A stretch of 64,000 nt of DNA. It comes from Halorientalis marina. Lineage in GTDB: Archaea; Halobacteriota; Halobacteria; Halobacteriales; Haloarculaceae. Positions 51,411-61,203 of this stretch are shown one piece after another. Position 1 is the first letter of the stretch. The number at the start of each line of letters is the position of its first letter. The notes below the pieces were generated by a model that saw only the letters and a program-made list of their open reading frames with translations, did no database searches and was not told the DNA's origin. The stretch is taken from NCBI RefSeq assembly GCF_023028345.1, contig NZ_CP095487.1:372001-436000 (forward strand). The letters run 5' to 3'. Both the position numbers and the translations under genes were made by a program.

Positions 51411-51424
51411 AATCAAATGTGATA
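51411..51424 (+). promoter_or_regulatory. AATC-N6-GATA element between cheB and cheW
   Basis: AATC, then AAATGT, then GATA. It differs from the TATC-N6-GATA elements upstream of cheY and arlCE only at the first base. It lies in the divergent cheB/cheW promoter region. Confidence 0.4.
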
Positions 51425-51494
51425 GCACAGGGGTCAGGATTAAGTTCGCGTCTTGGTTCCGTCCGGGTACGAGCGGCTTTCGCGGGTGAAACAT

Positions 51495-51956
51495 ATGGCA
51501 AAGGCATCCACGCGGTCGGCGGCGGAGGCGACGGGACAGGTACTCGAGTTCAAACTCGGCACGGAGACCTACTGTGTCGACATCGACTACGTGACGGAGA
51601 TCGTCGACGTCGGGGAGTTGACGGGCCTCCCGAACGCGCCGGAGTACATCGAGGGCGTGATGGACCTGCGCGGGCGGACGACGGCCATCGTCGACCCCAA
51701 GGAGGTATTCGACATTGAGGCCGTCGAGACGGACGACCGGCGGATCATCGTGTTCGACCCGGAGATCATCGCCGACCGGAAGGCCGCGGGATGGCTCGTC
51801 GACGAGGTGTACCAGGTGCTCCGTCTCGACGAGGAAACCGTCGAGGAGGCCCCCGAGGGCGGCCGAGAGGCCGTCCGCGGCGTTATCAAACACGACGACG
51901 ACGACGCGGACGACGGGTTCGTCATCTGGGTCGACCCACAGGCCGTCCACCGCTGA
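51495..51956 (+). CDS. cheW: Chemotaxis coupling protein CheW
   Basis: 153 residues, a single CheW domain with the SH3-like pattern VLEFKLGTETYCVDIDYVTEIV, then GVMDLRGRTTAIVDPKEVF and an acidic end. It couples receptors to CheA. Faces away from cheB. The ATG at 51495 gives the normal family start; an upstream in-frame ATG reads non-homologous sequence. Confidence 0.95.
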   Translation: MAKASTRSAAEATGQVLEFKLGTETYCVDIDYVTEIVDVGELTGLPNAPEYIEGVMDLRGRTTAIVDPKEVFDIEAVETDDRRIIVFDPEIIADRKAAGWLVDEVYQVLRLDEETVEEAPEGGREAVRGVIKHDDDDADDGFVIWVDPQAVHR

Positions 51957-52018
51957 TCGGCCGTCGCGGGTTCCGCGGTCGGTGCCGTCGGCGGCTACCG
52001 CGAGCCGGGGGACAACAC

Positions 52019-52024
52019 TTTTTT
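52019..52024 (+). terminator. T-run terminator candidate after cheW
   Basis: Six T residues about 60 bases after the cheW stop. Archaeal termination often occurs at such runs. Confidence 0.35.
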
Positions 52025-52080
52025 GCCAAGGTGTCGGATACTTTTTCAATTCGTGGCGCGTACGCGTCACTATCAGACCG

Positions 52081-52806
52081 ATGATCGAGCTCACCAAAAC
52101 CGGAATCGACGGGCTGGACGACATTCTCAACGGCGGCATCGTCAAGAACTCCACGACGCTGGTCAGCGGGAATCCGGGGGCCGGAAAGAGCATTCTGGGG
52201 CTGCAGTACATCTACAACGGCGTCCGGATGTTCGACGAGAAGGGCATCTACCTCTCCTTCGAGGAGAACGAGGAGGACATTCAGGAGGCGGCCGAGTCCA
52301 TCGGGTTCGACGACTGGGGCGAGTACGTCGAGTCCGGCGATATCAAGGTGTTCGACAAGCAGGTCCTGCTTCGAGAGAACGATTTCACCTCCTCGCTCGA
52401 CCTCCTGCTCGAGGACCTCCAGGACGAGGAGTACGAACGGCTCGTGCTCGACTCGCTGACGATGTTCCAGCTCTTTTTCGAGAACGAACAGGAGAAACGG
52501 ACCTACCTCCTGAAGTTCACCGACATCCTTCGGAAGAACGGACTGACGACGCTGATGACGAACGAGCAGGGCGCCGTCTTCCCGGAGACCGACATCGGGC
52601 TGGAGAACTACCTCACTGACGGGAACATCTACCTCATCCAGACGCCGACCGAGTCCGGCGTGAACCGCTACGTCTGGGTCGCGAAGATGCGCAAACAGAA
52701 CATCGAGACCGACATCTTCCCGATGGAGATCGAACACGGTGGCATCCGCGTCCACCAGAACGCCTCCGCGTTCTCGATGATGAGCGAAGAGGAATCCCCG
52801 ATGTAA
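52081..52806 (+). CDS. Single-domain KaiC/RecA-like ATPase
   Basis: 241 residues. Walker A GNPGAGKS is at 30-37, the catalytic Glu pair is in YLSFEENEED, and Walker B is RLVLDSLTMF. It resembles the KaiC-like proteins of haloarchaea, relatives of ArlH and of the circadian-type Cir proteins that affect motility in Haloferax. The Ser/Met-rich C terminus may be a regulatory tail. It lies between cheW and the winged-helix gene, all on the plus strand. Confidence 0.9.
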   Translation: MIELTKTGIDGLDDILNGGIVKNSTTLVSGNPGAGKSILGLQYIYNGVRMFDEKGIYLSFEENEEDIQEAAESIGFDDWGEYVESGDIKVFDKQVLLRENDFTSSLDLLLEDLQDEEYERLVLDSLTMFQLFFENEQEKRTYLLKFTDILRKNGLTTLMTNEQGAVFPETDIGLENYLTDGNIYLIQTPTESGVNRYVWVAKMRKQNIETDIFPMEIEHGGIRVHQNASAFSMMSEEESPM

Positions 52807-52808
52807 CG

Positions 52809-52826
52809 GTTATTGGGCTCAATAAC
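52809..52826 (+). promoter_or_regulatory. Hairpin downstream of the KaiC-like gene
   Basis: GTTATTG and CAATAAC around a 4-base loop, three bases after the stop codon. The right arm is part of TCAATAACGAT (52819-52829), which recurs exactly upstream of cheY (56910-56920). It could be a terminator or a binding site. Confidence 0.45.
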
Positions 52827-52920
52827 GATTGTAACCACTCCATACGGCGTTCACACGTTCGATAACTGCCGTCGAGACCGCCCGCTCTCGTCCGTTCTCC
52901 GCTCCCGGTACTCCCGCCAG

Positions 52921-52927
52921 TTTTATA
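52921..52927 (+). promoter_or_regulatory. TATA box of the winged-helix gene
   Basis: TTTTATA centred about 32 bases before the ATG at 52956; the start site would fall at about 52950, over the palindrome at 52941. Confidence 0.6.
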
Positions 52928-52940
52928 CTGACGAAAATTC

Positions 52941-52953
52941 ATTATCTGATAAT
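52941..52953 (+). promoter_or_regulatory. Perfect palindrome ATTATC-T-GATAAT, candidate auto-operator
   Basis: A 13-base palindrome located between the TATA box and the ATG of the winged-helix gene, overlapping the expected transcription start. This is the classic place for a repressor that controls its own gene. Half-sites GATA/TATC recur in the neighbouring promoters. Confidence 0.55.
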
Positions 52954-52955
52954 AG

Positions 52956-53291
52956 ATGGCACCGACCGACATCCTGCGGACGCTGGGGAACAAGTACAGC
53001 GCGGAGATACTGGAGGCAACCGACGAGCCACAGTCCGCACAGGGGCTCAGCGAGGAACTCGACATCCCGATCGCGACCTGTTACCGCCGGATCGACGAAC
53101 TGACCGAGCACGACCTGCTGGAGCTCCACGACAACATCCTCTCGGACGACCGCCGGCGCATCAAGGTCTACCGTCGCAACGTCGACGAGGTGACCGTCGA
53201 CTTCTCGGGGGAGATGTCGGTGGTCGTCGAGGAGCGGTCCGAGGTCACCAACAAACTGGACGAGGCCTGGCGGACCCTCTCGGAGAGTTAG
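52956..53291 (+). CDS. Small winged-helix transcription regulator
   Basis: 111 residues. The first 65 form a winged helix: TLGNKYSAEILEATDEPQSA then QGLSEELDIPIATCYRRIDELTEHDLL in outline, with recognition helix around IATCYRRIDEL; a basic wing (SDDRRRIKVYRRN) and a C-terminal helix follow. This is the ArsR/TrmB-like HTH type common in haloarchaea. It sits in the centre of the motility island with a palindrome at its own start. A role in controlling arl/che expression is inferred. Confidence 0.87.
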   Translation: MAPTDILRTLGNKYSAEILEATDEPQSAQGLSEELDIPIATCYRRIDELTEHDLLELHDNILSDDRRRIKVYRRNVDEVTVDFSGEMSVVVEERSEVTNKLDEAWRTLSES

Positions 53292-53417
53292 TAGTCTGCG
53301 CGCGTGCGCGCGCTGTCACGCCGGTCGCTGCCTCCGACCGCGACACGTGCCCGTCGGTCCCCATCTGCGTACCCGATTGCCGTCCTCCGCTTCCGTTCCC
53401 GCGCTGTAACGAGGCGT

Positions 53418-53431
53418 TATCAGCCGAGATA
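53418..53431 (+). promoter_or_regulatory. TATC-N6-GATA element upstream of the DUF7521-like gene
   Basis: TATC, AGCCGA, GATA. It lies 52 bases before the ATG and just upstream of a TATA-like GATTTAAG (53444-53451). Confidence 0.45.
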
Positions 53432-53482
53432 TTTTCAAGCATGGATTTAAGAGGGGAAACTCCGTAGCGATCGGCAGGGAAG

Positions 53483-53767
53483 ATGGCAATGGCCGTAGAA
53501 ATCCTCTATGCGATCTCGACCCTGGTCTTCGTCGTGGCCGGGCTCACCATGGTTGGGATGGCGATACGCGCGTACGTACAAACGTCACGACAGGCGATGT
53601 TGCACCTCTCGCTGGGGTTCTCGTTGGCGGTCGCCGGCGCGGCGGCGACGATGATCAGTGCCTTCCTCAACGACTTCGAGGGCGCCCGGTCGCTGTTGCT
53701 GGTCAACAGCGGTCTCACGACTTTCGGCTACCTGTTCGTGATGTACAGCCTGGTGACTTACGAGTAA
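53483..53767 (+). CDS. DUF7521-like membrane protein in the motility island
   Basis: 94 residues with three hydrophobic segments (about 5-28, 40-62 and 70-90). The pattern matches the small haloarchaeal DUF7521 proteins. It stands between the winged-helix regulator and the archaellins, all on the plus strand. A role linked to motility or sensing is inferred from position. Confidence 0.75.
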   Translation: MAMAVEILYAISTLVFVVAGLTMVGMAIRAYVQTSRQAMLHLSLGFSLAVAGAAATMISAFLNDFEGARSLLLVNSGLTTFGYLFVMYSLVTYE

Positions 53768-53930
53768 TACGGCCGGTCCCGAAAGAACCGCCGGACGGCA
53801 TCGGTTCGTTATTGCCCGTTACGCCGGTTTTCGGAGCTGAATATCGGCTACCGGCCGTCTGGTTCTCGATACCAGTAGCGATAATAACAGCGTAACCGTC
53901 TGTTTTCACTGCTGATAACCAGCGAGTCAG

Positions 53931-53940
53931 GTTTATATCC
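53931..53940 (+). promoter_or_regulatory. TATA box of the archaellin operon
   Basis: GTTTATATCC, centred about 72 bases before the first archaellin ATG, predicting a leader of about 45-50 bases. GATA half-sites lie upstream at 53868, 53880 and 53914. Confidence 0.55.
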
Positions 53941-54007
53941 CGTGAGTCGGACGTTTCGGGTAGAGTCCGGGGCGACCCTCACGGTCACTCGGGCACATGT
54001 GATAGCC

Positions 54008-54751
54008 ATGTTCGATAACGAAAACAACGATTCCGAACGAGGGCAGGTCGGGATCGGGACGCTCATCGTGTTCATCGCGATGGTGCTGGTCGCGGCGATC
54101 GCGGCCGGGGTCCTGATCAACACGGCCGGGTTCCTCCAGAGTCAGAGCGAAGAGACGGGACAACAGAGCAGTCAGCAGGTGACCAACCGACTGCAGGTCC
54201 AGACAGCGACGGGCCTGGTGACGAGCGCTGACGCCGACAACACGATCGGTGCAGTCGAACTGATCGCGACGAAGGCCCCCGGCGCTGAAGACATCGACCT
54301 CACTGGTGTCACGATCCAGTGGGTCGACGACACCGGGACGTACGATATCGCCCACGACAAGGCATTCGACAACCAGGACGGTGCGTTCGATCACATTCCG
54401 GTGAAGGACGAAGATGGCTCGCTGGACGATCAGGACTCCGCACCGGTGATCAACAGCCCCGACGACCGGGCTCGCCTGATCTTCGACATCAACAGCGACG
54501 ATACCTCATCATCTGGTGGCGCGTTCTACGACGACGGTAGCCCAGTTGAACGGGTCGAAGATGATGGTAATGTGAGGCTCTTTGACACCTCTAGAACTGA
54601 CCATACCTTCCGTACCGGCACTGACGGAAACAAGGGTATCGAAGAAGGCGGTACCGCGCGACTTCGGATCACCACCCAGTCCGGCGCCACGTCGACGGTC
54701 CGGCTGACGGTGCCCACGTCGCTCAGTGGCAGTTCCGCGGCACAGCTCTAA
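54008..54751 (+). CDS. arlA1: Archaellin (major filament protein), copy 1
   Basis: 247 residues. The class III leader ends SERG and the mature protein starts [14 protein letters not shown], the classic archaellin N terminus cut by the prepilin peptidase. The first 160 residues and the last 22 codons are nearly identical to copy 2 at DNA level; the middle (about 161-217) is unrelated, AT-richer and shorter here. The mature protein has no N-x-S/T sequon. A longer frame starts at a GTG (53942) but the ATG matches copy 2. The archaellins form the rotating filament. Confidence 0.97.
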
Positions 54752-54765
54752 ACTGGTGAGAATAC

Positions 54766-55578
54766 ATGTTCGATAACGAAAACAACGATTCCGAACGAGG
54801 GCAGGTCGGGATCGGGACGCTCATCGTGTTCATCGCGATGGTGCTGGTCGCGGCGATCGCGGCTGGGGTCCTGATCAACACGGCCGGGTTCCTCCAAAGT
54901 CAGAGCGAAGAGACGGGACAGCAGAGCAGTCAGCAGGTAACCAATCGGCTGCAGGTCCAGACCGCAACCGGGCTGGTGACGGGTGCTGACGCCGACAACA
55001 CGGTCGGTGCAGTCGAACTGATCGCGACGAAGGCCCCCGGCGCTGAAGACATCGACCTCACTGGCGTCTCGATTCAGTGGGTCGACGACACCGGGACGTA
55101 CGATATCGTCCACGACAAGGCATTCGACAACCAGGACGGTGCGTTCGATCACATTCCGGTAAAGGACGAAGATGACTCACTGGACGATCAGGACTCCGCA
55201 CCGGTGATCAACAGCCCCGACGACCGGGCTCGCCTGATCTTCGACATTGGGGAGAGCGATGTCGCCGACAGTAACAATGGCGATTTCGTTGATACCGATG
55301 GTAGCATCATTGTTAGGGCTGAACAGGGTACCGACCAAGCTCTCTGGAACGACGCTAACCCCGGGTATTCGGGCAGCGGTGACAGTCCATCCAGCACACT
55401 CAGTGACCTCAACGAGCATACCTTCCGCCCCGATGAGAACGGCGAGGCCCCCCCCAACGAGGGTATGCAAGAAGGTGCCACCGCGAGGCTCCGCATCACC
55501 ACGCAGTCCGGTGCCACGTCGACGGTCCGGCTGACGGTGCCCACGTCGCTCAGTGGCAGTTCCGCGGCACAGCTCTAA
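54766..55578 (+). CDS. arlA2: Archaellin (major filament protein), copy 2
   Basis: 270 residues, 15 bases after copy 1, with GGTGAG before the ATG acting as ribosome-binding site. Leader and mature N terminus are the same as copy 1. The first 482 bases are near-identical to copy 1 and the last 66 bases exact; the variable central segment (about residues 161-240) is Gly/Asn/Ser-rich and longer. No sequon in the mature part. Together the pair suggest cassette-like exchange of the exposed domain. Confidence 0.97.
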
Positions 55579-55689
55579 GCTAGCGCGATTTTCGTTTTCC
55601 GTTCTTTCACGCCGACCAGCGGCGCCGCCGCCGTATCGACCGCCGCGAGCGGCCAAGGAGTTATACTCGCTCGTGACGGAGACGTAGAT

Positions 55690-56337
55690 ATGCCGGGGTC
55701 AGACGACGAGCCGACCGGCGGCGATCCCGAGGAGGGGCCGGTCCTCTCGCCGGAGGAGATCGACATCACCGACGACGAGCGCGTCCGCGAACTCGAAGAA
55801 GGGCGATACGTCGTCTCCTCGGGCGACCCTATCGCCGAACCCGACGACGAACCGGCGGGACAGATCGAGGGCGAGCAGCGGGCCACGCCGGACCGCCCCG
55901 CCGAGCAGGAGACGGAGCCGACGCCGGCGCCCGACCCGACGCCCGAGCGGGGCGCCACTGACACTGCGCCGGCGGGCGAGCCCGATCTCACGGCCCGCAG
56001 CGTCCACCGGTGGCTCTCGGACGACCTCGCGGCCTCGAACTCCCGCTACGGATTCGACATCACGGCCTCCTTCGACGGCGCCGTCTCCCAGCAGCGGATG
56101 GTCAGCAACGACGTGGTGACCATCTTCGAGACGCTCGTGATGTGGTACGCCCAGCAGATCGACCGCAACACGCCCATCGAGGAGGTGCTCGGCATCCTCC
56201 TCACGGAGGCGAACGTCCCCGTCGAGGTGCCGCCCGAGTCGATCCGGCGCGCGCTCGCATCGAGCGACCTCTCGCCCGAGGACTCCATCGCCGACTTCAT
56301 GACGGCCGTCAAGGACAACGACGGCCTGGAACTGTGA
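55690..56337 (+). CDS. DUF7500-like protein in the motility island
   Basis: 215 residues. The N-terminal half is disordered, acidic and Pro-rich (EETEPTPAPDP-like composition). The C-terminal half (about 105-215) is a helical domain with WLSDDLAASNSRYGFD and IFETLVMWYAQQ. It matches haloarchaeal DUF7500 proteins encoded beside archaellins. Function unknown. The stop overlaps the next start (GTGA). Confidence 0.75.
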   Translation: MPGSDDEPTGGDPEEGPVLSPEEIDITDDERVRELEEGRYVVSSGDPIAEPDDEPAGQIEGEQRATPDRPAEQETEPTPAPDPTPERGATDTAPAGEPDLTARSVHRWLSDDLAASNSRYGFDITASFDGAVSQQRMVSNDVVTIFETLVMWYAQQIDRNTPIEEVLGILLTEANVPVEVPPESIRRALASSDLSPEDSIADFMTAVKDNDGLEL

Positions 56338-56873
56338 GCCGCCGGGACCGCCTCGTCGAACGCCTCGCCGCCGTCCCGGTCCGGCAGGTCCAGCTCGCCG
56401 TCGTGGGTCTCGTCCTGTTCGTCCTCGTCCTGTCCAGCCCCGTACTCGGCGCGGTCGATCTCACGCCCGAGACGCGCGACCGGCTGGGCGACGGGACGGC
56501 CGCGGCCACGCTCGCCTCGTCGCCGGCCGAGGACCTCCGCATCGACCGCGGCCGCTTCGGCACCGGCGTCTTCTACCTCCGAATCCCGCCTGCCGCCGTC
56601 GACGTCGAGTCGGTCACCGGCCGCCCGCGGGTGGTCTACCGGGTGGCAGTCCCGGGTCTGGGATTCGAGCGGACGGCGACGGCCCGCGTGGCCGAATCCG
56701 GCCGCGTCCGCGTTCCCATGGACGCGCGAGCGTTCACCCTCGCCGCGGTCGACAACGAGACGTACCGAGCAGCGGTCAGTGTCCGCGTTCAGAGTTTCGA
56801 AACCGACCGCGTCGTCGCTCGCCGGACCGCCACAGTTCCGGTCGAAAACACGACGACGTGGAGCGGGCGCTGA
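56334..56873 (+). CDS. Membrane-anchored hypothetical protein in the motility island
   Basis: 179 residues, GTG start overlapping the preceding stop. One N-terminal membrane helix (about 20-42) is followed by an extracytoplasmic beta-rich domain with SVTGRPRVVYRVAVPGLGF. It is coupled to the DUF7500-like gene. No family recognised with confidence; a partner in the archaellum or taxis system is possible. Confidence 0.7.
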   Translation: MSRRDRLVERLAAVPVRQVQLAVVGLVLFVLVLSSPVLGAVDLTPETRDRLGDGTAAATLASSPAEDLRIDRGRFGTGVFYLRIPPAAVDVESVTGRPRVVYRVAVPGLGFERTATARVAESGRVRVPMDARAFTLAAVDNETYRAAVSVRVQSFETDRVVARRTATVPVENTTTWSGR

Positions 56874-56907
56874 CGCCATTGCCCGTTCTCTTCCGCCGAG
56901 AATATGC

Positions 56908-56921
56908 TATCAATAACGATA
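56908..56921 (+). promoter_or_regulatory. TATC-N6-GATA element upstream of cheY
   Basis: TATC, AATAAC, GATA. It lies about 15 bases before a TATA-like CTTATTTGG (56936-56944). It shares TATCAAT at the left end and A-N-GATA at the right end with the arlCE element. Confidence 0.5.
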
Positions 56922-56973
56922 ATCTGGAGGACACGCTTATTTGGATATTCCGGATAGAAGGAGGTGAGCGAGT

Positions 56974-57333
56974 ATGTCAGAGGTACTGATCGCGGACGAT
57001 TCGGAGTTCATGCGGAACCTCCTCCGGGAGATCCTGGAGGAGGACCACCAGATAGTCGGGGAAGTAGAGAACGGCGTCGAGGCCGTCGAAGTCTACAAGG
57101 AGGAGGTACCGGACCTCGTCATGATGGACATCGTGATGCCGATCCGGGACGGGATCGAGGCCACCGACGAGATCAAGAGCGCGGACCCGGAGGCAACGGT
57201 GATCATGTGTACGAGCGTCGGCCAGGAGGAGAAGATGAAGGAAGCGGTCAAGGCCGGCGCCGACGGGTACATCACGAAACCCTTCCAGAAACCGAGCGTG
57301 ATCGAGGCCATCGAGGACGCCGTCGGGGCCTGA
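56974..57333 (+). CDS. cheY: Chemotaxis response regulator CheY
   Basis: 119 residues, one receiver domain. Acidic pair Asp8/Asp9, phospho-acceptor Asp52 (MMDIVMP), Thr80 (MCTS) and Lys102 (YITKPF) are all present. A strong ribosome-binding site GGAGGTGA lies 8 bases before the ATG. CheY-P binds CheF, which signals the archaellum motor. First gene of cheY-cheC-cheD. Confidence 0.97.
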   Translation: MSEVLIADDSEFMRNLLREILEEDHQIVGEVENGVEAVEVYKEEVPDLVMMDIVMPIRDGIEATDEIKSADPEATVIMCTSVGQEEKMKEAVKAGADGYITKPFQKPSVIEAIEDAVGA

Positions 57334-57340
57334 CCGCGCG

Positions 57341-58555
57341 ATGAGGGTCGATATACAGTCGCTGGAGACGTTCAATCGGCTTGCCTACGAGGGTGCCGAG
57401 CAGGCCACGGCCATGTTGACACAGATGACGGGCATCGAGGCCGACGTGGCCGTGACGAAGATGGCCCTGATGGACCGGGCCGACGTGGGCGAGGAGCTTG
57501 CCGGCCGCGACCACGTCGGGGTCCAGTTCGGGTTCGAGGGGCCGCTGACCGGCGACACGACGCTGGTTTTCGACGAGGCGTGTACCGACTCCATCGTGGA
57601 AGCGCTCCCCGGCGGTGCCGCCGAGGGCGCGATGAAGGAGAGCAGCGTCAAAGAGATCGGCAACATCATGATGAGCGGGTTCATCGACGGCTGGGCCGAC
57701 TTCCTCGGCACGACCATCGAACACACCCCGCCCGAGTACATCGCGGCCAGTGGCGCCGACGTCCTCCCGGCGGCCGACGGCCGTGGCGAGCAGGTGTTCG
57801 TGTTCCGGAGCCACGTCGCCTGGCCCGGGGAGTCCGAGGACCTGGACTTCTACATCTACATGCTGCCGGAGTACGCGGAACTGGCCGAACTGATGGCCGA
57901 CACCGCCGGCGCTGGCGACGACGCCATCCCCATCGACAAGCTCTCCGTGTTCAACGAGATGACGCGGGCGGGTACGCAAACGGCTGCCGAGAACGTCACG
58001 GCGATGACCGGCATCGAGACGAAGGCGGAGGTCACCCGGATCAGTTTCGCCCCCGTCGAGGACGTGCCCAAACAGGTCGACAACCGGTCCTACGTGGGGA
58101 CCGTCGTCGAGTTCGAGGGCAAGCCCAGCGGCTACCTCATGATCCTGTTCGACGAGGAGTCGGCGCTGAACGTCGCCGAGGCGCTCATGCCGATGGAACC
58201 CGACGGCGAGGGGTTCACCGATATGCACGAGAGCGCTATCCAGGAAATGGGTAACATCATGACCTCCGGGTTCATCGACGGCTGGGCGAACGTCCTGCAG
58301 ACGGGCGTCGAACACACCCCGCCACAGGTCGTCCACGATATGGGACGGGCGATCATGGACCCGCTGGCCGCCAAGGTCGGACAGACACAGGAACACGCCT
58401 TCATCATCGAGTCGACGATGCGGACGGCGGACCTGGAGTTCGAGAGCGAGATTCACGCGCTGCCCGACGACGAGGAACTGAAAACGGCCCTGGAGGAGCT
58501 GGACGTCGACCGGGCCGACGAGACAGAGGCGAGCGTCGAGAAAATATTCGAATGA
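57341..58555 (+). CDS. cheC: CheC phosphatase with two tandem CheC domains
   Basis: 404 residues: two CheC units in one chain (about 1-200 and 201-400). Each has the phosphatase-type S-x3-E-x2-N motif (SSVKEIGN and SAIQEMGN) followed by SGFIDGWA. The usual single-domain CheC is half this length. It removes phosphate from CheY and also partners CheD. Eight bases downstream of cheY. Confidence 0.94.
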   Translation: MRVDIQSLETFNRLAYEGAEQATAMLTQMTGIEADVAVTKMALMDRADVGEELAGRDHVGVQFGFEGPLTGDTTLVFDEACTDSIVEALPGGAAEGAMKESSVKEIGNIMMSGFIDGWADFLGTTIEHTPPEYIAASGADVLPAADGRGEQVFVFRSHVAWPGESEDLDFYIYMLPEYAELAELMADTAGAGDDAIPIDKLSVFNEMTRAGTQTAAENVTAMTGIETKAEVTRISFAPVEDVPKQVDNRSYVGTVVEFEGKPSGYLMILFDEESALNVAEALMPMEPDGEGFTDMHESAIQEMGNIMTSGFIDGWANVLQTGVEHTPPQVVHDMGRAIMDPLAAKVGQTQEHAFIIESTMRTADLEFESEIHALPDDEELKTALEELDVDRADETEASVEKIFE

Positions 58556-59070
58556 AGGTCTACGACGGATCGAGCGAGGGGTCGGCCGAGCCACGCAAGG
58601 ACCGTGTCAAAGTGGGCATCGCGGAGTACGACGTGACGACCGACGGTGCCGCACTCACCACGAGCGGCCTCGGCTCGTGTCTCGGGGTCGCGATGTACGA
58701 CGAGCGCGCCGGCGTCGCCGGCCTCGTCCACGTCATGCTCCCCTCGGCCGACGAAGTCGACGGCTCGAACCCGGCCAAGTTCGCCGACAGCGGCATCGAG
58801 GAGCTTCTCGATGCGATGGAACGGGAGGGCGCCGACCCGGGCCACGTCCGGGCGAAAGTCGCCGGCGGCAGCGACATGCTCGATTTCTCCGAGAACGGTT
58901 CGGGGATCGGCGTCCGGAACATCGAACAGGTCGAACGGACCCTCGACGACCTCGGGATTCCAATCGAGGAGAAAGACGTCGGCGGCGACCACGGTCGCTC
59001 GCTCCGGCTCGAGGGGGCCTCCGGTCGGCTCGTCGTCAGGAGCGCGAACAAAGGCGAGCAGACGATCTGA
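58552..59070 (+). CDS. cheD: Chemoreceptor glutamine deamidase CheD
   Basis: 172 residues; ATGA overlap with cheC. The Cys43 nucleophile in GSCLGV, His60 in GLVHVMLP and Thr37 match the Cys-His-Thr triad of the family. It deamidates receptor glutamines and is modulated by CheC. The C terminus is slightly longer than bacterial CheD. Confidence 0.95.
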   Translation: MKVYDGSSEGSAEPRKDRVKVGIAEYDVTTDGAALTTSGLGSCLGVAMYDERAGVAGLVHVMLPSADEVDGSNPAKFADSGIEELLDAMEREGADPGHVRAKVAGGSDMLDFSENGSGIGVRNIEQVERTLDDLGIPIEEKDVGGDHGRSLRLEGASGRLVVRSANKGEQTI

Positions 59071-59230
59071 CCCACCGCGGGCCGTCCCTGCGACGCGCCC
59101 GGACCCCCCCTGTTCCCCACCTTTTCCACCCCTTCTCAGTACCGAGAATTGAAACCGTCGCCCGTGGACCATAATTGCGGGTTCAGAAGTGCGAAAAATG
59201 GCGAAATCTCCACTTGAAGCGTCTGACGAT

Positions 59231-59244
59231 TATCAATTATGATA
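59231..59244 (+). promoter_or_regulatory. TATC-N6-GATA element upstream of arlCE
   Basis: TATC, AATTAT, GATA. It lies about 10 bases before a TATA-like CATATT (59255-59260). Compared with the cheY element, 12 of 14 positions agree. Confidence 0.5.
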
Positions 59245-59280: not shown

Positions 59281-61203
59281 ATGACTGTGATGAGCAGTGT
59301 CGCCACAGGAGTGACGGCCGGGTTCGGACTCGCCGCCGGGGGCGGGCAGGCGGTGCTCCCCGAAGGCGTCGTCCCGGTCGTGGTCCTGCTGGCGAGCGGT
59401 GCCGTCGGGATGAGTATAAAGAACATGTTCGATTCGATCCTCTCCGACGAGGAGGCCGACGACGACGGCAACGAGGAACTCAGTGGCGACGGCGGCGGCC
59501 TCATGGCAGAAGAGAGCAGTAGCGCCGGCGGCGGCGGTGGCGACGAACTCGGTGGGCTGGACGACGATCTGGGCGGACTCGACGACGACATCGGCGGCTT
59601 CGAGGACGAGGACGACGAGTTCGGCGACATGGGCGGTGGTGGCGGCGGTGCAGCCACCGACGAACTGGAAAACAGGCTCGAGGAAATGGAAAACGAGGTC
59701 GGGAGCCTCCAGTCGACGGTCAACACCGTCCGCAACGAGAACGAGCAGATCGGCGAGCAGGTCGACGACATCGAGGAGAACATCCGGAAGCTCCTCGACA
59801 TCTACGAGATGGTGACCCGCGGCGTCAACCCCTTCGCCGACGACATCCAGGGCGGTATGGGTGGCGGCGGCGGGATGGAGGGCGGGTTCGGCCTCTTCGA
59901 CGACGACGACGGTGGCGAGGAAGAGGAGGAACTCGACGACGAGATCGCCAACGCCGACGCTGAGGGCTTCTTCGACGAGGACCTCGTGGAGGACGACGGC
60001 GACGAGATCGGCGACGACGACATGGGTGGCATCCAGGACGTGGTCGACGAACCCGCCGGTGACGACCCCGGTTTCGAGGACGACGGCGGCACCTTCGACG
60101 ACGACGTGCTCGACGACGACCTCGGCGGCGACGACATGGGCGGCTTCGACGAGATGGACGAGGGTCTCGACGACGGCGGCGACGATTTCGACGATTTCGA
60201 CGATACGGGTGATGATATGCTCGAATCCGACGACGGCGGCGACGACGGTGGCGGCGACGGTGGCGGCGACGGCGACGGCGGCAAGTCGTTCCAGGAACTG
60301 AAAGAAGAGTACGAGTCCGGCGACGCCGAGTGGGCCGAGGGCGAGGAACCGGCCGACGCGGCCGCGGACGCCGACGCCGCCGCGGACGACGGCGGTGACG
60401 GGGACCTCCTCGGCGACGACTTCGGCGGCCTCGACGATGGCGCCGACGATGACCTCCTCGGTGAGGACGAGGCGACGGACGCGACGGCCGAAAACGGAAG
60501 CGACGAGGTCGTCGCGTCGGACGACGTGGACGACGTGTTGCCCTCGGCCGGCGACGGCGACGAGGACCCGTCCGCCGAGGACACCGAGGACGCTGCCGAG
60601 GCGGACGCGGCCGAGGCAGCGTCCGGGACCGTCGAACCCGACACCGAGGATGACGGCATCGACGAGACGGCCGCAGACGAGATGATCGCCGAACCCGAGT
60701 CCGAACCGACCGACAGCACGGTCGCCGAGGCTGACGGCACGGCGGCGACCGACGACGTGGCGGCCGAGACCGGCGGGACGGCACCGGCGGCCGAGACGGC
60801 GACCGGGTCGGTGGCCGAAACCGCGGCCGCGACCGGGACGACGGACGAGGCGGACGCGGGCGACGACGGGCCGAGCAAGCCGTACCTGGGCACGCTGCCC
60901 GACGGCTACGCGGCGGATCTGCTGGTGATGGAGTGGCTGGAGTACCTGATCGCGGAGTCGAGCGTTCGCGAGGCGTCGGAAGCCATCGCCTACTACGAGC
61001 GGATCGACTGGATCGACGACGCGGTGGCCGACGACCTGCGCTCGTATCTCGCGGGCTTCGACGAGGCCGGCACCGCGGAGGGAACGCTGACCATCGATCA
61101 CCACACGCAGAGCCTCCGCTACATCAGCCAGCTCGGCGGCGACACTGCCGACCAGATGGCGATGCAAATGCTCGGAGGTGGTGGTGATGGGCTTCAGCGT
61201 TAG
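59281..61203 (+). CDS. arlCE: Archaellum motor protein ArlCE (fused ArlC and ArlE)
   Basis: 640 residues. An N-terminal hydrophobic segment (about 24-44) is followed by a coiled coil (about 126-172) ending in LLDIYEMVTRGVNPF, the ArlC hallmark. A 340-residue linker of Asp, Gly, Glu and Ala follows (about 190-532). The C-terminal domain (533-640) has LGTLPDGYAADLLVMEWLEYL in outline and YYERIDWIDD, the ArlD/E signature. ArlCE forms the cytoplasmic ring that receives CheF/CheY-P signals. Its 3' end overlaps arlF1 by 17 bases. It is unusually long because of the linker. Confidence 0.93.
   Translation: MTVMSSVATGVTAGFGLAAGGGQAVLPEGVVPVVVLLASGAVGMSIKNMFDSILSDEEADDDGNEELSGDGGGLMAEESSSAGGGGGDELGGLDDDLGGLDDDIGGFEDEDDEFGDMGGGGGGAATDELENRLEEMENEVGSLQSTVNTVRNENEQIGEQVDDIEENIRKLLDIYEMVTRGVNPFADDIQGGMGGGGGMEGGFGLFDDDDGGEEEEELDDEIANADAEGFFDEDLVEDDGDEIGDDDMGGIQDVVDEPAGDDPGFEDDGGTFDDDVLDDDLGGDDMGGFDEMDEGLDDGGDDFDDFDDTGDDMLESDDGGDDGGGDGGGDGDGGKSFQELKEEYESGDAEWAEGEEPADAAADADAAADDGGDGDLLGDDFGGLDDGADDDLLGEDEATDATAENGSDEVVASDDVDDVLPSAGDGDEDPSAEDTEDAAEADAAEAASGTVEPDTEDDGIDETAADEMIAEPESEPTDSTVAEADGTAATDDVAAETGGTAPAAETATGSVAETAAATGTTDEADAGDDGPSKPYLGTLPDGYAADLLVMEWLEYLIAESSVREASEAIAYYERIDWIDDAVADDLRSYLAGFDEAGTAEGTLTIDHHTQSLRYISQLGGDTADQMAMQMLGGGGDGLQR

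Follow-up and report, generated by a model that had tools for sequence, protein, structure and literature searches.

Probable CsmR operator sites at motility promoters of Halorientalis marina and a candidate small RNA family in Haloarculaceae

Several promoters in a motility locus of the haloarchaeon Halorientalis marina carry the palindrome TATC-N6-GATA, and we wondered which protein reads these sites and to what effect. The window analyzed here is a stretch of 64,000 nucleotides (nt) of contig NZ_CP095487.1 (C1:372001-436000), in a genome of 4,754,137 bases on 4 contigs. The original prediction, made from this DNA alone, proposed an undescribed archaellum/chemotaxis regulon under a single DNA-binding protein, perhaps the winged-helix product of the gene at 52956. 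As a claim of novelty this fails: the CsmR regulon of Haloferax volcanii was published on 12 June 2026 (PLoS Genet.; PMC13286277). According to the main text of that paper, CsmR (hvo_1209) is a 13 kDa winged-helix protein whose gene adjoins arlA1 and arlA2, and chromatin immunoprecipitation followed by sequencing (ChIP-seq) found TATCA(N4)TGATA in 50 of 65 CsmR peaks, upstream of archaellum and chemotaxis genes and beside the TATA box. The sites in H. marina are real and very probably operators of CsmR. What is new here is a Haloarculaceae-wide comparison, the DUF7521 gene as a predicted target and a set of candidate small RNAs. Comparative evidence, independent of the ChIP-seq, thereby extends the June 2026 discovery in Haloferax to another family of haloarchaea.

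Exact copies of TATC-N6-GATA occur in the window at just the three places where they had been reported, 53418, 56908 and 59231, upstream of the DUF7521, cheY and arlCE genes. Dinucleotide shuffles yielded a mean of 0.06 exact matches and none of 100 shuffles reached three; the earlier rough estimate was well below one chance copy per 64 kb. When one mismatch was allowed, ten copies were observed against 4.0 expected, and again none of 100 shuffles reached this number. The AATC form upstream of cheW (51411-51424) is present as described, the cheY and arlCE copies are identical at 12 of 14 bases, and a reading of the gene positions places all four of these sites between genes. The arlCE copy is a full match to TATCA(N4)TGATA, and the cheY copy differs from it solely by the T of TGATA. 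At all five window promoters listed in Table 1, 14-15 nt separate the end of GATA from the start of a TATA-like element, which is an activator-like position. The fifth of these promoters, that of the first archaellin gene, was missing from the earlier list, as was a TACC form (TACCAGTAGCGATA, 53870-53883), a second one-mismatch copy, which precedes the archaellin site by 20 nt.

A scan with CheY returned 354 haloarchaeal loci, and the best 80 of these were split into 43 Haloarculaceae-type loci (L044-L086) and 37 others (L087-L123). Sites were sought in the 150 nt before the gene start or, for arlCE, in the 450 nt after cheD. In the Haloarculaceae-type loci the exact site was found at cheY in 39/43, at arlCE in 36/38 and at DUF7521 in 32/36 cases, and DUF7521 carried it in 10/10 other haloarchaeal loci as well; conservation at cheY and arlCE orthologues, which the original prediction had offered as a check, is thus borne out. 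At cheW all 30 loci had a site with at most one mismatch and one had an exact site: AATC was present in 28 rows, TATC in L063 and a different sequence in L057. The best-matching archaellin copy had an exact site in 9/32 loci and at most one mismatch in 24/32 (worst one-mismatch control 6/32). No site even with one mismatch was found in Haloarculaceae-type loci at KaiC (0/35), cheC (0/43) or cheD (0/43), and DUF7500 promoters gave 0/27 exact sites and 3/27 with at most one mismatch. Control patterns with spacings of 4, 5, 7 or 8 or with four other half-site pairs gave 0 or 1 exact matches per Haloarculaceae-type set.

In the other 37 loci the cheY site was exact in 5 and had at most one mismatch in 21, and Halorubrum-type loci carried TCTCA-N4-TGAGA at cheY instead. 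At arlCE, 2/29 loci outside the Haloarculaceae-type set had an exact site and 16/29 one with at most one mismatch; the control with a spacing of 5 also gave 2 exact matches, and the search region may miss the correct promoter in Halorussus-type loci. A cheY site with at most two mismatches was present in eleven loci of the Halorussus, Halomicrococcus, Haladaptatus and Halobacterium types (one of them from a metagenome-assembled genome); these had no csmR in the flank, to which the csmR search was limited.

For an alignment 71 sites were picked and three were left out, two of which (L057 cheW and L069 archaellin) would break the invariance described here. Within WATCA the T, the C and the A after it, and within GATA the last three bases, do not vary among the remaining 68 sites. 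WATCA-N5-GATA is the better description of the proposed operator. The spacing to the TATA box was assessed with the pattern TT[TAG]A[TAG], starting 14 or 15 nt after GATA. It was found in 40/43 cheY and 34/35 DUF7521 promoters (offset 14) and in 27/30 cheW promoters (both offsets summed). At offset 14-15 it was present in 19/38 arlCE and at most 11/29 archaellin promoters. The arlCE shortfall arises because TTCAAG falls outside the pattern and the archaellin shortfall because of forms such as TATTAT; despite it, both promoters show an A+T peak in the same position. Since the five promoters are mutually unrelated, the near-constant gap points to contact with basal factors.

We propose that CsmR, encoded at 52956, recognizes the TATC-N6-GATA palindrome as its operator. 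A CsmR dimer would occupy the palindrome directly upstream of the TFB/TATA site and, once bound, might help to attract basal factors to the archaellin, cheY, arlCE, cheW and DUF7521 promoters. In Haloarculaceae, the same promoter architecture would serve a candidate small RNA family that it precedes, with two copies in this genome. We favour the view that CsmR activates rather than represses at these promoters. There is a likeness to EarA of Methanococcus and Pyrococcus, a winged-helix regulator that binds upstream of archaellum promoters and is thought to aid TFB recruitment (PMC13286277).

A number of observations weigh against CsmR as an activator acting through these sites, and they are considered here together with the alternatives. 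The first is published: the csmR deletion of H. volcanii is non-motile and csmR overexpression raises motility, yet archaellum transcripts are higher in the deletion strain, which the authors call a paradox (PMC13286277). Activation is unproven because the knock-out raises, rather than lowers, the transcripts of the target genes. If CsmR were a repressor at these sites, the knock-out effect would be direct derepression, and the motif-bearing genes were indeed those most up-regulated in the deletion (PMC13286277). Moreover, at the csmR promoter itself 15/35 Haloarculaceae-type loci (L051, L053-L056, L059-L061, L064-L066, L068-L070 and L073, from Haloarcula, Halomicrobium and some others; the window organism is not among them) carry an exact site that ends only 2-3 nt short of the TATA-like element, in the place expected of TFB. 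This placement suggests self-repression of csmR. At the motility promoters, in contrast, the site lies upstream of the place of TFB at a near-fixed distance and the TATA of arlCE is poor, as expected for an activator. The near-constant 14-15 nt and the weak arlCE TATA thus provide a geometric argument on the activate-or-repress question, and the increased motility upon csmR overexpression (PMC13286277) also speaks against repression. We regard a repressor as unlikely, while taking it seriously.

The protein encoded at 52956 is likely the CsmR orthologue, as judged by neighbourhood and homology. Its relatives near KaiC-like and archaellin genes are 78-95% identical in 35/43 Haloarculaceae-type loci and 57-67% identical in 21/37 other loci, including Haloplanus, Halorubrum, Halobellus and Halohasta. 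Like that of H. volcanii, the locus has the motif next to the TATA, a winged-helix gene adjoining the archaellin genes, targets among archaellum and chemotaxis genes and a KaiC-like gene nearby. It differs in a looser motif (WATCA-N5-GATA, with TTTC at some archaellin promoters) and in the position of the KaiC-like gene, which lies upstream of csmR whereas hvo_1212 of H. volcanii lies beyond arlA2 (PMC13286277). Predicted targets here further include DUF7521, which goes unmentioned in the main text of PMC13286277, as well as the candidate small RNAs.

The joint presence of csmR and the cheY site was followed in 15 Haloarculaceae genomes, 11 of which had CheY at E 1e-30. In all five csmR-bearing genomes the best cheY had an exact site (a second cheY copy of L226 is without it). 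In contrast, none of six csmR-less genomes had a site with at most one mismatch at any cheY copy, the best candidates showing two or three mismatches. These six genomes all belong to one genus, which may reflect a single evolutionary event, and archaellins were demonstrated in only one of them (G016). A rival binder has to be considered as well. The genome holds 13 further matches to the 52956 winged helix (E 1.6e-4 or better, the best 44% identical), any of which could in principle be the paralogue that binds the sites, and the neighbourhood argument by itself is no proof of binding. On the other side, the published ChIP-seq used the archaellin-adjacent protein (PMC13286277), and the cheY site is absent in the six csmR-less genomes, a comparison in which csmR alone was scored. 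Binding by another paralogue is in our opinion very unlikely. Published motif, neighbourhood and pairing together lend good support to the part of the original prediction that places one DNA-binding protein, the predicted CsmR, at these promoters. A different stretch, TTTCGANCGNTGA with TTCACAT or TTGACGT after it, is common to the six cheY promoters of the csmR-less genus (L220-L225), some 55-65 nt ahead of cheY, and might be where a replacement regulator binds.

Genome-wide counts of the bare motif belong on the unfavourable side, too. The whole genome contains 33 exact copies, compared to 4 for a reversed-pattern control. Thirty of them lie outside the window, so that the 8-base motif is not motility-specific, and 16 of these 30 lie within open reading frames (ORFs) as defined by a crude caller; none of the other 14 precedes an obvious archaellum gene as judged by eye. 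The regulon is therefore not delimited by the bare motif, which was rejected as a tool for finding it. The presence of three of the 33 copies inside less than 6 kb represents strong clustering (about 1e-5 by our own post hoc arithmetic). The original prediction had named a motif equally common within genes and away from motility genes as evidence against it: this applies by half, in that the bare motif is not motility-specific, whereas a profile of motif plus TATA proved more specific. Further unfavourable points are that four near relatives (L044, L045, L047 and L048) have an ATTC left half at cheY, with two mismatches, and that the worst one-mismatch controls reached 20/35 at csmR, 14/36 at DUF7521, 15/38 at arlCE and 12/43 at cheY. 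At cheW the worst such control was 2/30. Because one-mismatch controls rise elsewhere, we rely on the exact counts and on the one-mismatch counts at cheW and archaellin. Chance clustering of an AT-rich palindrome, which would profit from the shortness of the motif and from its 33 genomic copies, about half in ORFs (crude caller), is refuted by conservation near a fixed TATA distance in dozens of genomes with only 0 or 1 exact matches in the spacing controls, and we give it practically no credence.

The profile comprised 42 positions, spanning site and TATA, and was built from 68 training sites, five of them from the window. Of 383 first-look candidates the genome search scored 150, and further sites may therefore have escaped it. 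At least seven places matched at E 0.05 or better; five were the window promoters, all in the training set, and the two others were C1:3570119 and, 26 nt before a seven-transmembrane (7TM) histidine kinase gene, C1:1222076. Among 28 relatives, 12 had a match at E 0.01 or better and all 12 possess csmR (E 1e-25). Of the 16 relatives without a match at 0.01, seven have a csmR match (E 1e-25) nonetheless, which is the last of the unfavourable points.

Twenty stretches with profile matches from relatives were examined for downstream targets. One recurrent target other than che and arl genes was a 7TM histidine kinase in five genomes of one genus (L140, L142, L146, L149 and L153; one Pfam-checked). 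Profile matches were also located shortly before genes for transducers of the methyl-accepting chemotaxis protein type in two relatives (L141 and L150; both Pfam-checked) and before a DUF5658-type protein in two relatives (one Pfam-checked). In this genome, 7TM histidine kinases have less sure CsmR-type sites at C1:1222076 and C1:2682324; of the seven histidine kinases, five in relatives and two here, three were Pfam-checked. A further recurrent target was an element of non-coding appearance, the candidate small RNA.

This element consists of the site, the TATA and, 30-33 nt on, GGCAC-loop-GTGCC, followed by a C-rich run such as CCCCCACCCCACCCCC. Fixed-distance patterns were used in place of a covariance model because MAFFT misaligned the hairpins. 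The first pattern was built after eight examples and contained GATA, TTTAT and CCCACCC only, with neither the hairpin nor the left half-site. It matched 32/96 Haloarculaceae genomes, compared to 5 genomes for the reversed pattern. GGCAC, although the hairpin was absent from the pattern, stood at the expected place in 33 of the 39 printed places, from 30 genomes (hand count); in three same-genus copies (L175, L178 and L180) the second hairpin arm differs. Thirty loci were examined for the left half-site. At the correct distance, the 28 with GGCAC had TATC exactly in 10 cases, with one mismatch in 17 and with two in 1, and the two loci without GGCAC showed three and four mismatches. Excluding five loci that had first been found via the site (L174-L178) left 23 loci with 7 exact, 15 one-mismatch and 1 two-mismatch half-sites. 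A second pattern, made of TATA and hairpin without site or C-rich tail, was run on 49 named genomes and found 20 places in 15 genomes, 18 of which (14 genomes) had the C-rich tail. At these 18 a site at 13-17 nt was present with at most one mismatch in 14, with two mismatches in 2 and not at all in 2; the two tail-less places had no site. Seven of the tailed places were already known; the corresponding numbers for the remaining 11 are 7, 2 and 2. Named carriers include Haloarcula vallismortis, Halomicrobium katesii, Halosimplex carlsbadense and Halorientalis salina (four places).

Across 243 genomes of the order, the first pattern occurred in 26/43 Haloarculaceae genomes, compared to 3 for the reversed pattern. 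Outside Haloarculaceae there were matches in 10/200 genomes, all lacking the hairpin in the stretch printed, and the reversed pattern matched 12/200; these matches were rejected as background. All 32 matching Haloarculaceae genomes have csmR, and none of 36 csmR-less genomes matches. Fisher's test gives 3.5e-9 by genome, a value that is too strong as the genomes are related. By genus the association is 11/16 versus 0/6 (0.006) or, when only hairpin genera are counted, 10/16 (0.012).

We tentatively propose that Haloarculaceae CsmR drives a small RNA family (GGCACC-loop-GGUGCC with a C-rich single strand) that might pair with G-rich mRNA stretches and form a post-transcriptional arm of the archaellum regulon, the counterpart of bacterial flagellar-regulon small RNAs. 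The latter reportedly include sigma28-dependent RNAs of E. coli and a pair in Campylobacter. The likeness lies in small RNA genes within a motility regulon, whereas the candidates here are archaeal and predicted from sequence. Rfam offered no family name for them: there was no family match in 8 loci, and only an adjacent tRNA matched (E up to 1). Should the RNAs prove real, the regulator of archaeal motility would have an RNA layer directly beneath it.

Rather than an RNA gene, the hairpin and C-rich stretch could, however, be the leader of an mRNA, or else an operator or a pausing element in the DNA immediately downstream of the start site. A nearly invariant stem, as seen here, is what one would expect of a protein operator, and the G-rich template strand might form a quadruplex. 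Four same-genus copies (L177, L178, L180 and L145) are followed after 140-194 nt by the start of a trypsin/PDZ-type protease gene, and the element lies inside an ORF in 7/31 rows (crude caller). The median folding z-score of 34 40-nt stretches was -2.7, with L175, L176, L178 and L180, all of one genus, near zero, but the hairpin-less chance match L165 folds equally well (-3.0), which makes such scores too weak as proof of an RNA. Over about 90-110 nt the two copies of this genome gave -6.9 and -1.7 and two from relatives -0.8 and -1.4. An operator or leader is harder to reconcile with loops that vary, including GCAA and CAC/UAC, and with the sixth stem pair, which in 38 copies is C-G in 29, A-U in 3, G-C in 1 and unpaired in 5 (hand count). 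Contexts differ among genera, with the next gene convergent in 16/31 rows, and an ATG near the expected start is present in just 5/34 stretches. We consider an operator or leader rather improbable.

Returning to the putative small RNAs, no description of them was found in open-access search listings on haloarchaeal small RNAs, in the main text of PMC13286277 or in Rfam 15. They cannot alone explain the knock-out paradox in Haloferax because the pattern was found only in Haloarculaceae; an equivalent RNA in Haloferax could do so. A search for targets of the C-rich tail around the starts of 21 genes in the window (plain shuffles) gave nothing clear. The largest excess was at the csmR start (-14.6 versus a shuffled mean of -8.5, standard deviation 3.6) and is at most a lead.

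Table 1. Predicted CsmR-type sites, genes of the motility locus and candidate small RNAs. Positions are those of the window unless preceded by C1.
Feature	Position	Strand	Description
CsmR-type site AATCAAATGTGATA	51411-51424	+	cheW promoter, AATC form; TATA-like TTAAG from 51440
CsmR-type site TATCAGCCGAGATA	53418-53431	+	DUF7521 gene promoter, exact TATC-N6-GATA; TATA-like TTTAAG from 53446
CsmR-type site TTTCACTGCTGATA	53904-53917	+	first archaellin promoter, TTTC form; TATA TTTATA from 53932
CsmR-type site TATCAATAACGATA	56908-56921	+	cheY promoter, exact TATC-N6-GATA; TATA-like TTATTT from 56937
CsmR-type site TATCAATTATGATA	59231-59244	+	arlCE promoter, exact TATC-N6-GATA; weak TATA-like TTGAAG from 59259
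cheW	51495-51956	+	predicted target; PF01584 E 1.7e-27
KaiC-like ATPase gene	52081-52806	+	possible CirA counterpart, by neighbourhood only; promoter without a site; PF06745 E 5.9e-50
Predicted csmR orthologue	52956-53291	+	111-aa winged-helix protein, HTH_20 E 1.6e-11, residues 10-57; proposed site binder
DUF7521 protein gene	53483-53767	+	predicted regulon member; PF24365 E 5.9e-8
First archaellin gene arlA	54008-54751	+	predicted target; PF01917 genome match C1:426041-426703 (window 54041-54703)
Second archaellin gene arlA	54766-55578	+	3' of the first; PF01917 E 1.1e-31
cheY	56974-57333	+	predicted target; PF00072 E 1.2e-31
arlCE	59281-61203	+	predicted target; PF05377 and PF04659
Candidate small RNA (L028, L177)	C1:2294927-2295013		site, TATA, GGCAC hairpin, C-rich tail; 140 nt before trypsin/PDZ-type protease gene
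Candidate small RNA (L134)	C1:3570119-3570207		site, TATA, GGCAC hairpin, C-rich tail; before convergent gene

Immediately 5' of the csmR start codon lies a TGATAA stretch (TTATCTGATAATAG, window 52940-52955), which recurs in Haloarculaceae-type loci.

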